From a virus, in the IMG/VR virus record IMGVR_UViG_3300025913_000021, positions 85,261 through 149,260 of that record: a stretch of DNA of 64,000 bases. One strand, 5' to 3'. Under the pieces are notes generated by a model. It was not told the DNA's origin. It searched no databases and saw only the letters and a program-made list of their open reading frames with translations. The number at the start of each line of letters is the position of its first letter. Position 1 is the stretch's first letter. This document shows positions 977 through 6,908 of this stretch, piece after piece. The position numbers and the translations under genes are program-made.

Positions 977-1731
977 TCATCGCTGGGGATATTCACTCCG
1001 ACCCACGGCACCTGGCGTACCTGTACGAGGTCGCCGTGCAGACGCGCTGCGAGGCGATCGTGGTGGTCGGGGACTTCGGTTACGTCGAGCACTACGACCA
1101 AGGCGCTTTCCTGGCAGTCGCCGAGGAAGGATTCCGACTGACCACGGAGCACGGGTGGCCGGTCGAATTGCTGTGGCTGGACGGGAACCACGAGAACCAT
1201 CCGCTGCTGCACGAGAAGTACGGCCCCAACTCACCCATCCACGAAGCCAGCGAAGAAGGCTTCTGGAAGATGCGAGAAGGCGTTCACTACATCCCACGGG
1301 CCACCCGCTGGAATTGGGCGGGCATCAGTTTCCTCGCCCTCGGTGGGGCGTACTCGATCGACAAGATGCACCTGTTGAAGTTGCAGCGTCAGGACGGTGG
1401 TGAACGGTGGTGGCCCACCGAGGAGATCACCGACGATGACGTGGCGAAGTGCCTGTCGGATCGGTCCCCCGTGGACGTGATGCTCACGCACGATAAACCA
1501 CGCGACGTACAAGTACCGTGGTCCCGCCGCGACATTCCGTTAGCACTGCCCAACCAGGACAAGATCCAACGGGTGGTGAATGCTCTGCACCCGAAGTTGC
1601 TGGTGCACGGGCACCTGCACATCCGCTACCAAAGCAAGGTAGACCGCACCATCGTGGAGGGATTGGGATGCAACCCGCACAAGGACTCCGACGACCCGGC
1701 GGATTCCTGGATAAGGCTGTCGCTCGTCTGA
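928..1731 (+). CDS. Metallophosphoesterase (calcineurin-like)
   Basis: 267 residues carrying the ordered metal-binding motifs of the calcineurin-like phosphoesterase fold: GDIH (about 20-23), GDFG (48-51), GNHE (86-89), a lone His in MLTHD (about 187) and GHLH (228-231). These residues normally coordinate two metal ions and hydrolyse phosphomono- or phosphodiesters; the substrate cannot be deduced. The GTG start follows a GGAGG by about 10 nt. It is the only clear enzyme in the rightward small-gene operon, so a nucleotide- or DNA-end-processing job is plausible. I am sure of the family, not the substrate. Confidence 0.88.
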   Translation: MATRVPGPVLTDPTGLIIAGDIHSDPRHLAYLYEVAVQTRCEAIVVVGDFGYVEHYDQGAFLAVAEEGFRLTTEHGWPVELLWLDGNHENHPLLHEKYGPNSPIHEASEEGFWKMREGVHYIPRATRWNWAGISFLALGGAYSIDKMHLLKLQRQDGGERWWPTEEITDDDVAKCLSDRSPVDVMLTHDKPRDVQVPWSRRDIPLALPNQDKIQRVVNALHPKLLVHGHLHIRYQSKVDRTIVEGLGCNPHKDSDDPADSWIRLSLV

Positions 1732-2535: not shown

Positions 2536-2810
2536 TCGACCCGAACATCACGACGGCCGACGGCAAGCCGGTCGCCTTCCACGACTTCAAGCCCGAGCAG
2601 TTCCCGTTCCGCGTCCAGTTCATCGACAACGACACCGAGGAACTGCTGCACGAGGTCATCGTGCGCGGGATCAGCCACATGGAGGTCCCCGGCTTCGCAC
2701 CGCGTCGGGTGCGGGTCGAGATCACCTACCCGAACGGGTTGCAGTACGTCGAGGGACCACCAGGATCGGGACTGAGCGAAATGCGCCAGGTCCCACCGCC
2801 GCGCCTGTGA
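2532..2810 (+). CDS. Hypothetical protein, 92 aa
   Basis: GTG start within a GTGA overlap. The sequence alternates short hydrophobic and charged stretches (FPFRVQFIDND, RRVRVEITYPNG), consistent with a small beta-rich domain, and has a Pro-rich C-terminus. No catalytic motif recognised. It lies between two cysteine-rich genes. Confidence 0.7.
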   Translation: MIDPNITTADGKPVAFHDFKPEQFPFRVQFIDNDTEELLHEVIVRGISHMEVPGFAPRRVRVEITYPNGLQYVEGPPGSGLSEMRQVPPPRL

Positions 2811-3034
2811 GCTATCGCGACACCGAGTGCGATGCGTGCGGCAAGCCGTGGGACATCCACCTGATCATGGGCTGTGTGCACGAGCACTCCGGTCACGTGC
2901 GGTTCTGTCGAGAGCACCGCTCTCGGTTGGTCGCCACTGCCGATCAGTACCTGTGCTGCACCCCCTGCATCAACGATCACCCGTGCCGCACGCACGTCGT
3001 GCGCGTCATTGAAGATCGGTCCCAGGCCGCGTGA
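2807..3034 (+). CDS. Cysteine/histidine-rich small protein
   Basis: 75 residues from a GTG in a GTGA overlap. Cys and His residues are dense: CDAC (about 8-11), then H/C residues near 24-34, and CCTPCINDHPC near 50-60, enough for two zinc sites. It ends at 3034, and the sigma-factor promoter begins 4 nt later. Role unknown; a zinc-binding regulator is an inference. Confidence 0.7.
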   Translation: MSYRDTECDACGKPWDIHLIMGCVHEHSGHVRFCREHRSRLVATADQYLCCTPCINDHPCRTHVVRVIEDRSQAA

Positions 3035-3037
3035 CCC

Positions 3038-3065
3038 TTGCGCTGTTCGGCTGCGCGTCTATATT
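3038..3065 (+). promoter_or_regulatory. Leaderless-type promoter of the sigma-factor gene
   Basis: TTGCGC at 3038-3043 and TATATT at 3060-3065, separated by 16 nt. Seven bases after TATATT comes the ATG at 3073, so transcription would begin at or next to the start codon. Two other promoters in this window have the same spacing from -10 box to start codon. Confidence 0.6.
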
Positions 3066-3072
3066 CCGTGTT

Positions 3073-3852
3073 ATGGCGGTGGGAAAGCATCAGCTAACGG
3101 ACGGTGAACTCGACGAGCAGTGGGCCCTCCTCAAGGCCGGAGGACCACGCGCTTCGACCGCCAGGGACCGTCTCGTGCTGCACTGGCGTCCGTTCGTCTG
3201 CTCGATCGCCAACCACATCGGCACCCGACTCCCGGCCCACGTGGACAACGAGGACCTGATCAGCTACGGGATGATCGGGCTCCTGGACGCCATCGAGAAG
3301 TTCGACCCCGGCCGTGGCCTCCGCTTCAAGACCTACGCCGGGAAACGGATCAGCGGCCAAATCTACGACGAGCTGCGCAAGCTCGACTGGGTTCCGCGCT
3401 CGGTGCACAGCCAGGTCAAGGAGGTCACCGAGACGGTGATCGACCTGGAGCGCAGGCTCCAGCGTCCCGTCTCCGATGCCGAGGTGGCCAAGGCTGCCGG
3501 ACTGAGCCGCGAACAGGTCGCTGACGCCCGCAGCGAGCAGTCCTACATCAGCGTCATGGCGCTGGACGCCCTGCTGGACAACAACGTCGGGGACGAGACC
3601 CTCTCGCTGGCCAGCCAGCTCTACGACCGCACGCAGTCACCCGACCAGGACTTCGAGGTCGAGGGCATCAAGGCTCTGATCGCCGGGGCTATGGCCAACC
3701 TGGGTGAGCGCGAGGCGCTGGTGCTGGCGCTGTACTACATCGAGGGGCTGACGCTCTCCGACATCGGTGGGCTGCTCGGCGTCACTGAGTCTCGCGTGTG
3801 CCAGATGCATACCCGCGCGATGGTCGCAGTCCGCGAACGTCTCGCCGCCTGA
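3073..3852 (+). CDS. RNA polymerase sigma factor, FliA/WhiG type
   Basis: 259 residues. Region 2 spans about 35-110 (DLISYGMIGLLDAIEKFDP, then the aromatic-rich melting segment). Region 3 spans about 118-160 (helical, ending with AKAAGLSREQV). Region 4 is a helix-turn-helix at about 200-258 (LGEREALVLALYYIEG, then SDIGGLLGVTESRVCQM). This order and length fit group 3 sigma-70 factors. The frame is open back to a GTG at 3031, but I prefer ATG 3073 because the promoter would yield a leaderless message from it. It probably redirects host RNA polymerase to a subset of phage promoters; which ones is not shown by the sequence. Confidence 0.9.
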   Translation: MAVGKHQLTDGELDEQWALLKAGGPRASTARDRLVLHWRPFVCSIANHIGTRLPAHVDNEDLISYGMIGLLDAIEKFDPGRGLRFKTYAGKRISGQIYDELRKLDWVPRSVHSQVKEVTETVIDLERRLQRPVSDAEVAKAAGLSREQVADARSEQSYISVMALDALLDNNVGDETLSLASQLYDRTQSPDQDFEVEGIKALIAGAMANLGEREALVLALYYIEGLTLSDIGGLLGVTESRVCQMHTRAMVAVRERLAA

Positions 3853-5127: not shown

Positions 5128-5514
5128 ATGCCCGCGCCCGAGGAGCCCGATCCGCTCGACGACATCAGCACTGCTGCGCTCAGGGCGGCGCTGGAGCGTC
5201 GGGGGTATGTCACCCTCACGGCGAAGTCCTACAAGGCCGCACAGCGCCGCCAGGGGATCGCGCAGAGCCGCATGGCGTGGGCCGAACGAGAGGCCGAGAG
5301 CGCTCGGAGCTGGGCCTACGACTGCCTGGCCGAGGAGCGTCGTCTGCACGCCCGACTGAACGAGATCATCGCCCTGGCGACGCAGCACGGGATGACCACG
5401 GAGGATCTCGTCCGCTTCAACGAGCAGCTCGGACTTCGGGGCGCTCTGCCACCGACCACCGTCGTGCCCGAACTCCCAGGGGCCGTCACTCATCGCATCC
5501 CGGAGCAGCCGTGA
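5128..5514 (+). CDS. Hypothetical helical protein, 128 aa
   Basis: ATG 5128 was preferred over the in-frame TTG at 5119 because of the promoter geometry. The protein is Ala-, Arg- and Glu-rich and mostly helical (SYKAAQRRQGIAQSRMAW, LAEERRLHARLNEIIAL), with a Pro-rich tail. The stop overlaps the next GTG (GTGA). No family recognised. Confidence 0.7.
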   Translation: MPAPEEPDPLDDISTAALRAALERRGYVTLTAKSYKAAQRRQGIAQSRMAWAEREAESARSWAYDCLAEERRLHARLNEIIALATQHGMTTEDLVRFNEQLGLRGALPPTTVVPELPGAVTHRIPEQP

Positions 5515-5768
5515 CCCTGCCACAGGACGACGCCGACCTGTCCCCGCAAGTGCTGCGGGAGTACGCGATCCAATGCCTGCGCCAGGCTGGGACCTTCTCG
5601 TACCTGCCGTACACCCCCGCAGCGCCGGTCGCGCAGCCGGGCTTCACTGCACCGCAGCCGCTCCCGACACCGGATGCGCGCCCGAGCGGCATCCTGTACG
5701 CGCTCCAGGGCCTGCTGGCCATGCAGATCGCGAACTCGATCACGCACGTCATCGAGGAGCACCCATAG
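5511..5768 (+). CDS. Hypothetical protein, 85 aa
   Basis: GTG start in a GTGA overlap. The middle is Pro-rich (PYTPAAPVAQPGFTAPQPLP), followed by a hydrophobic-leaning helix (LYALQGLLAMQIANSITHVI). It is the last gene of the rightward block; a strong hairpin follows 2 nt after its stop. Function unknown. Confidence 0.65.
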   Translation: MTLPQDDADLSPQVLREYAIQCLRQAGTFSYLPYTPAAPVAQPGFTAPQPLPTPDARPSGILYALQGLLAMQIANSITHVIEEHP

Positions 5769-5770
5769 AT

Positions 5771-5803
5771 GAGCCCCTCCGCACGGGGGAAACGGAGGGG
5801 CTC
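5771..5803. terminator. Bidirectional hairpin terminator
   Basis: Perfect 11-bp stem GAGCCCCTCCG/CGGAGGGGCTC with an 11-nt loop. It lies 3' of the last rightward gene and 3' of the leftward tRNA transcript, so it can stop both. Confidence 0.8.
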
Positions 5804-5830
5804 AACGATCAGTCTGCGCCCACCGAGAAA

Positions 5831-5955
5831 CGGACGCAAGTCCGAATATTGGGGCGACAGGTGCCGGTGTAACGAGCATGTGCTAGCAAGCTCGGCCTCC
5901 ATGACTCGGCCAGGAGGAGTGCTTCCGGTTTAGAGCCGACGTTTCACCTGTCGCC
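5831..5955. ncRNA. Candidate structured RNA (cloverleaf-like)
   Basis: A 5-bp hairpin (CGGAC-GCAA-GTCCG, 5831-5844) is followed by an 11-bp closing stem (5853-5863 with 5945-5955). Inside the stem are a CCGG/CCGG helix and two hairpins with 5-bp stems and 12-nt loops (CGAGC/GCTCG and CCTCC/GGAGG). No open frame or tRNA T-loop is present, so it is not a tRNA, tRNA-Sec or tmRNA by sequence. If leftward, it would be co-transcribed with the two tRNAs and end at the 5771-5803 terminator; the GNRA loop argues for the + strand. The strand is unresolved. Confidence 0.45.
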
Positions 5956-5978
5956 GCCCGAGAGCATACCGAACATCG

Positions 5979-6051
5979 TCCGGGTGGAGGGACTCGAACC
6001 CCCGATCCCTTGGTCCCAAACCAAGTGGCCTAGCCGCTGGCCTACACCCGG
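5979..6051 (-). tRNA. tRNA-Pro(UGG)
   Basis: 73 nt fold into a full cloverleaf: acceptor CCGGGTG/CACCCGG, D stem GGCC/GGCC, anticodon stem CTTGG/CCAAG with loop TTTGGGA (anticodon TGG), and T arm with TTCGAGT. The 3' CCA is not encoded. It would help decode CCA/CCG-type proline codons. Confidence 0.93.
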
Positions 6052-6067
6052 GTGCGGGTTGCGATTG

Positions 6068-6140
6068 CAGGGGCGGTAGGACTCGAACCTACGGATGCCG
6101 GGTTTGGAAGCCGGTGCTCTTGCCGCTGAGCTACACCCCC
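6068..6140 (-). tRNA. tRNA-Trp(CCA)
   Basis: 73 nt with acceptor GGGGGTG/CGCCCCT, D stem GCTC/GAGC, and T arm GTAGG-TTCGAGT-CCTAC. The anticodon loop TTCCAAA places CCA at positions 34-36, as in bacterial tRNA-Trp; the top anticodon pair is a C-C mismatch. Discriminator is G, as usual for tRNA-Trp. CCA is not encoded. A Gly(TCC) reading would require an unpaired anticodon stem, so Trp is preferred. Confidence 0.88.
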
Positions 6141-6204: not shown

Positions 6205-6681
6205 TCATGACGGAGAGGCTAGCTGGTCGTCATCGAGGACATCAAGCGATTTCCGAACACCGCACTCGCATCCTGGAGCGAGGCACTGGCCTCGGTGATG
6301 GCGGGCCCGAGCATGTGGGCAGCCGCAGGGTTCCGGCATGGAAAGCAACGTCCGTCCGATTCCCTGCATCGGCTCGGCCTCGACGTGCCCATGTCGCTCG
6401 ATGGCCAGGCCGGTGGTGCCTGCACCCTCTGGACTCAGCAGGAAGTAGAGGATCTCCTGGGCGCGCTGCTTCGGAATCTGGTAGCTGTCGTGCACGTAGT
6501 CGTGATGCCGACGGCACAGCGTGATCAGGTTCTCGGGCACGTCGTGCGCATAGCCGCGCCGGTAGGTGATGTGGTGCACGTCGTAGGGCGGCTGGTTGGT
6601 CGCCCCGCACCACCGGCAGCGGTAGTTGTCCCGCTCGAAGATCGCGAGCTTGAGCTTCTTCGGCAGGCCCGTGTAGGTCAC
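6205..6681 (-). CDS. HNH endonuclease with C-terminal Cys/His cluster
   Basis: 158 residues from a GTG in a GTGA overlap; the longer frame upstream is a shadow. The HNH core is visible: CRWCG (about 22-26), DVHHITYRRG (about 33-42), ENLITLCRRHHDYVH (about 50-64). The central HH, the Asn and the later His match the metal-binding beta-beta-alpha fold that nicks or cuts DNA. A second Cys/His-rich stretch near the C-terminus (CGCPH, CLAPGCECG) may bind another zinc. Being next to the tRNAs it could be a free-standing homing nuclease, or it could help DNA processing. Confidence 0.88.
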   Translation of the reverse strand: MTYTGLPKKLKLAIFERDNYRCRWCGATNQPPYDVHHITYRRGYAHDVPENLITLCRRHHDYVHDSYQIPKQRAQEILYFLLSPEGAGTTGLAIERHGHVEAEPMQGIGRTLLSMPEPCGCPHARARHHRGQCLAPGCECGVRKSLDVLDDDQLASPS

Positions 6682-6908
6682 GCCTCGGCCGCGTCCTCGT
6701 TCTCGTCCTCGACCTCGTGCTGCCCGACGAGCCACTTCTTGTTCGTGGCCAGGTGCAGCGAGATCGTGTGCTCGCCGGGCTGCTGAGCCGCACGGAAGAA
6801 CTCGATCAACATGTCCTTGTTGACCTCGGCCCAGAACACCTCCTCGCCCTTCTCGTCGAACACGCGCAACGTCGGTAGGTCACCACTGCCTCGCGGGGTG
6901 TCACTCAT
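6678..6908 (-). CDS. Hypothetical protein, 76 aa, acidic tail
   Basis: ATG 6908, with GGAG 4 nt upstream, was chosen; it overlaps the preceding gene's stop region. The sequence reads like a small alpha/beta domain (TLRVFDEKGEEVFWAEV, then a helix and HTISLHLATNKKW) with a very acidic C-terminus (EVEDENEDAAEA). No family recognised. GTGA overlap into the HNH gene. Confidence 0.7.
   Translation of the reverse strand: MSDTPRGSGDLPTLRVFDEKGEEVFWAEVNKDMLIEFFRAAQQPGEHTISLHLATNKKWLVGQHEVEDENEDAAEA

Follow-up and report, generated by a model that had tools for sequence, protein, structure and literature searches.

The 103-nt segment at positions 5853-5955 (minus strand) of a viral DNA window, here called E1, is best read as a structured non-coding RNA that forms the last segment of a leftward tRNA-Trp/tRNA-Pro transcript, a reading held tentatively and at slightly less than even confidence. 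The window is the whole 64,000-nt stretch that was analyzed; it makes up the final 64 kb of a virus record of 149,260 bases and has a G+C content of 66%. The source is an uncultured virus of bacteria, and E1 adjoins two of its tRNA genes. The basis of the reading in sequence and computation is the position of E1, the strand of its neighbors, the non-coding interval in which it lies, an 11-bp closing stem, and two hairpins that fold well on the minus strand. A structured RNA is preferred because of a second stem-closed element in the same genome, a comparable element in Actinomycetia phage DSL-LC01, and the RNAs published from the tRNA regions of T4 and Kayvirus. E1 is thus a plausible RNA gene, put forward as a candidate.

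The strand of E1 is read from its neighbors. About 7.5 kb of genes runs leftward, from ribonucleotide reductase (RNR; 13662) down to an HNH endonuclease gene (6205-6735, minus; PF01844, E 1.5e-4) that lies directly upstream of the tRNAs. The tRNA-Trp (CCA; 6067-6140) and tRNA-Pro (TGG; 5978-6051) genes are also on the minus strand, and neither has an encoded CCA. Given this leftward direction of the two tRNAs and the preceding genes, the natural RNA would be the minus-strand one, and the transcript would read HNH, tRNA-Trp, tRNA-Pro, element, end. On this strand E1 begins 22 nt downstream of tRNA-Pro and is situated between that gene and a 12-bp hairpin at 5770-5804 (z -5.5 as RNA). The small genes up to 5768 run rightward and converge on the leftward unit. 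Among them, an 85-aa gene (5511-5768, plus; coding score +0.48) stops at the hairpin, which lies between it and the leftward unit and, though it has no U tract, may be a terminator shared by the two converging units. The interval 5805-5977 is non-coding, with scores of -0.5 to -0.9 in all six frames. A search for a U-tailed terminator and a sigma-70-like promoter found neither, which speaks against the preferred reading. The phage has a sigma-70-family factor of its own, with regions 2 and 4, at window positions 3031-3852 (plus), so phage-specific promoters may account for the missing sigma-70-like promoter near the tRNAs.

On the plus strand, E1 starts with GGCGACAGGTG and ends with its exact reverse complement. 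The perfect 11-bp stem claimed in the initial annotation (GGCGACAGGTG/CACCTGTCGCC, 5853-5863/5945-5955) is therefore borne out by the sequence. In the minus-strand RNA its 5' arm is GGCGACAGGUG (5945-5955; pair probability about 1.0) and its 3' arm is CACCUGUCGCC (5853-5863), and energy modeling has this outer stem paired with a probability close to 1 on both strands. Likewise present are the two 5-bp hairpins that had been described, CGAGC/GCTCG and CCTCC/GGAGG, each with a 12-nt loop. As minus-strand RNA, CGAGC-12 nt-GCUCG (5873-5894) has a pair probability of 0.88 (0.99 on the plus strand) and CCUCC-12 nt-GGAGG (5896-5917) one of 0.92 (0.30 on the plus strand), making the minus strand the only one on which both fold well. 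The inner CCGG/CCGG helix fared differently, with a modeled pair probability of just 0.09 on the minus strand and 0.06 on the plus strand, versus 0.28 and 0.46 for a rival UCGG/CCGG hairpin. A compact structured RNA beside the tRNAs stays plausible, but the cloverleaf or four-way geometry first proposed depended on that helix and is not upheld. The safer description is a long stem enclosing two hairpins, with a third, weak one possible. A small hairpin, CGGAC-GCAA-GTCCG, is found at 5831-5844 by sequence and fold; its GCAA (GNRA) cap is confined to the plus strand, which is probably not the transcribed one, and the minus strand carries a UUGC loop instead. The palindrome TGCTAGCA is present in the loop of the CGAGC hairpin. 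The suggestion that it could kiss with another copy found no backing, as the window contains no second exact TGTGCTAGCA and one-mismatch matches occur at chance level.

A minimal mechanism would give E1 a shielding and processing role. The leftward transcript would stop at or near the hairpin at 5804-5770, and 3'-end processing of tRNA-Pro would release the trailer. The closing stem could then shield this trailer so that an RNA of 100-130 nt accumulates, by analogy with T4 rnaC/rnaD and the Kayvirus RNAs. Once released, the RNA might bind tRNA-handling or translation factors, or might merely shield the transcript end.

The first alternative is chance: a short spacer in a 66% G+C genome may hold a fortuitous 11-bp and two 5-bp inverted repeats and no selected RNA. 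This is less likely than the preferred reading, though it has to be weighed seriously. Counting perfect inverted repeats with arms of 11 bp or more and a loop of 40-110 nt, the window has six and shuffles have 2.7 +/- 1.3, so an 11-bp stem is by itself not rare genome-wide. The other five are nowhere near tRNAs, which counts against the RNA reading. An 11-bp stem within the 173-nt interval from the hairpin at 5804 to tRNA-Pro, on the other hand, has a P of 0.001 by shuffle, which argues against chance. The case for more than chance is weak over the whole window and stronger locally. The fold z-score is modest and favors chance (-2.6 on the plus strand and -2.7 on the minus strand with 200 shuffles; -3.5 with a smaller shuffle sample), but the whole fold places among roughly the top 1% of 984 equal-size windows, a ranking that is favored by the choice of the exact ends of E1.

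Chance is also favored by the searches for relatives, which found none. An exact 15-mer search took in 106 viral stretches, none of which has the second stem arm, and distant blastn against phages and plasmids returned no relative of the element. A pattern of both hairpins with free loops had 0 matches in viral contigs and 1 in genome contigs, the latter in a tRNA-free part of a Streptomyces contig and judged to be chance. A one-sequence covariance model, run over loci totaling 0.67 Mb and over 14 phage records, gave a meaningful score to E1 alone. Routes via the HNH gene, the RNR gene, and tRNA-Pro led to no relative of the element; RNR relatives (66%) have no synteny at this locus, and no counterpart is present in L163 and L164, two contigs of large phages whose tRNA-Pro is similar.

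A further point against chance is that an element of like size and build adjoins the other tRNA of the genome. This second element is 96 nt long (G000:C1:5822-5917; L158:523-618, minus), with a 10-bp stem, GTGCTCCGGG/CCCGGAGCAC, enclosing 76 nt (P 0.0185 for the stem by shuffle). It lies 5 nt upstream of an anticodon-CAT tRNA (G000:5743-5816), the only other confident tRNA locus in the genome. Its plus strand contains a T-arm-like GTTCGAGTC. In DSL-LC01, the nearest sequenced phage by RNR (67% identical), a stem-closed non-tRNA stretch of about 92 nt lies in the tRNA-Thr/tRNA-Pro interval (L108:19190-19281; z -5.8). It resembles E1 in position, size, long closing stem, and location on the tRNA strand, but there is no clear common sequence and the E1 covariance model missed it. 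Alignment of E1 with both elements revealed position and size in common and no convincing common sequence.

How often such stems occur beside viral tRNAs was surveyed at 120 viral loci chosen by tRNA pattern and holding 646 tRNAs, with stems of at least 11 bp and a 40-130 nt loop. Such a stem was found in 11 of 614 stretches flanking tRNAs, against 7 of 714 controls, with shuffle expectations of 1.8 and 2.2. Long stem-closed elements beside viral tRNAs thus exist, but the class is not strikingly enriched, and this slight enrichment is again compatible with chance. Part of the survey signal comes from one real family with a covarying stem, here called the tRNA-trailer stem. It is repeated in phage tRNA arrays as a 17-19 bp stem, CCATATTGAARCACATT/AGTGTGYTTCAATATGG, around variable interiors of 45-100 nt, and it often begins at the tRNA CCA end. 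Copies were seen at L161:44-132, 205-303, and 1225-1307 (plus), at L232:513, 909, 1498, 2464, and 2900 (minus), and at L172:6596 (minus). In 8 copies, 97% of the cells are paired and 10 cells are changed on both sides, and the covariation score is 0.222 versus no more than 0.085 when slid. L161 and L232 share one conserved interior, and another contains a T-arm; the element in L161 has no Rfam match. Membership of E1 in this family (CCATATTGAARCACA...) was considered and rejected: its tRNA-Pro has no encoded CCA, the arms differ, and a 22-nt gap separates E1 from the tRNA.

The tRNA-trailer stem bears on a second alternative, that E1 is a processing or stability device only. Here the trailer would block 3' exonucleases or offer a double-stranded cut site, tRNA-Pro would be matured and the long leftward mRNA would be given a defined end, and the released piece would have no function. 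This explanation is fairly unlikely, and less probable than chance. E1 lies where such a device should, following the last tRNA directly and preceding the candidate terminator, and other phage arrays do have a long stem starting exactly at the tRNA CCA end, with compensatory changes and a variable interior, as one would expect if the stem is the part that counts. The two internal hairpins of E1, however, exceed what a processing stem needs, and the stem sequence of the tRNA-trailer family is unrelated to its own. A broader proposal, that E1 and the second element represent an unrecognized and fast-evolving class of stem-closed phage RNAs of about 90-100 nt, which would be carried in tRNA transcripts, would act on the tRNA-handling or translation machinery, and would keep their architecture without their sequence, is speculative and decidedly unlikely.

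A DNA-level site in place of an RNA, such as a recombination, homing-endonuclease, or replication signal, is very improbable. The fold is equally good on both strands, the inverted repeat is perfect, and an HNH endonuclease gene lies beside the tRNAs, all of which would suit such a site, but no known site was recognized and copies of the arms elsewhere in the window do not exceed chance.

The initial annotation held that E1 is neither a tRNA nor a tmRNA, and this agrees with ARAGORN and Rfam RF00005, which make no call on it. The combination of a tag reading frame and a tRNA-like domain that marks tmRNA is absent from the element, as is a T-arm with a GTTCRAN loop next to an acceptor stem, as neither strand of 5853-5955 contains GTTCGA. 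A degenerate, atypical, or suppressor tRNA, to which a 7-nt CUCUAAA loop on the minus strand and a CCA after the stem might point, was rejected as scarcely credible: relaxed ARAGORN calls were no better than the control rate (80 of 100 random stretches), the stem is 11 bp, the UCGG/CCGG arm pairs with a probability no higher than 0.28 on the minus strand, and the neighboring tRNAs encode no CCA.

Other structured or tRNA-like stretches were noticed in the compared genomes. Jumbo phages carry an unannotated non-coding stretch of about 250-400 nt, a putative rRNA-like RNA, located on the minus strand of two IMG/VR contigs (L163:8400-8805; L164 about 2730-3132) and in Xanthomonas phage XacN1 (L292:860-1130), Acinetobacter phage ME3 (L293:600-950), and Pectobacterium phage CBB (L294:890-1180). 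Near its 5' end is a 23S rRNA GTPase-associated-center sequence, GGTTGGCTTAGAAGCAGCCATCCTTTAAAGA, with 89-91% identity between L163 and E. coli 23S over 35-36 nt. Its conserved 3' end, CCCTTAGAGCATTTGGCGTAACAGCACAC, is reminiscent of the remaining half of this 23S region, and the L163 and L164 stretches also have a sarcin-ricin-loop-like AGTACGAGAGGA. By blastn with E up to 10, 49 phage records match the stretch, many of them weakly. It looks like a mimic of the ribosomal factor site; rRNA mimicry was also looked for in E1, and none was found. In the genome of E1, G000:C1:38150-38216 (L159:351-417, plus) is a weak tRNA match of 26 bits, under the Rfam cut-off, with a good T-arm and hardly any D-arm. 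By eye, its anticodon loop could present UUA, which would pair with the UAA stop codon. A contig with an RNR 66% identical contains, in its tRNA-Asn/tRNA-Thr interval, about 370 nt of structured-looking non-coding DNA (G002; L157:380-750, plus) without an Rfam match.

The preferred reading of E1, a structured RNA at the end of a tRNA transcript, has published parallels of several kinds. GOLLD and ROOL are structured RNAs of phages and prophages that are often near tRNA islands (PMC12286853). Unlike E1, they are several hundred nt long with elaborate structures, and no Rfam family, GOLLD and ROOL included, had a covariance-model match to the element on either strand at E up to 10. Kayvirus phages have two very abundant non-coding RNAs beside their tRNA genes (PMC7698491). 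In vB_SauM-515A1, lncRNA1 and lncRNA2 are non-coding and lie directly after or before tRNA genes, as does E1 (PMC7698491). Their regions span 525-570 nt and their high abundance was measured, whereas E1 is 103 nt and predicted from sequence.

The closest comparison is with phage T4. Knowledge of small RNAs in phage tRNA clusters goes back to T4, yet they are still without a function (PMC9697503). The T4 RNAs rnaD and rnaC are expressed late, were detected by northern blot, and are of unknown function (PMC9697503). rnaC (species 1) and rnaD (species 2) are about 120-140 nt long, are not tRNAs, and are encoded on the tRNA strand where the tRNA cluster has its 3' end. E1, its strand judged from its neighbors, also lies in a tRNA cluster on the tRNA strand, and as the 3' segment of the tRNA transcript it would occupy the corresponding place. 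The T4 cluster holds a homing endonuclease gene, and the E1 locus has an HNH endonuclease gene beside its tRNAs. The two differ in that rnaC has a T-arm (GGTTCGAATCC) and E1 has none, no sequence likeness was noted, and the T4 RNAs are proven by northern blot whereas E1 is known here from its sequence. As a compact orphan RNA, E1 would add one case and a defined, testable piece; it would take a conserved family to open the question of their function. If real, E1 would be a further example of the known but unexplained kind to which rnaC and rnaD belong.
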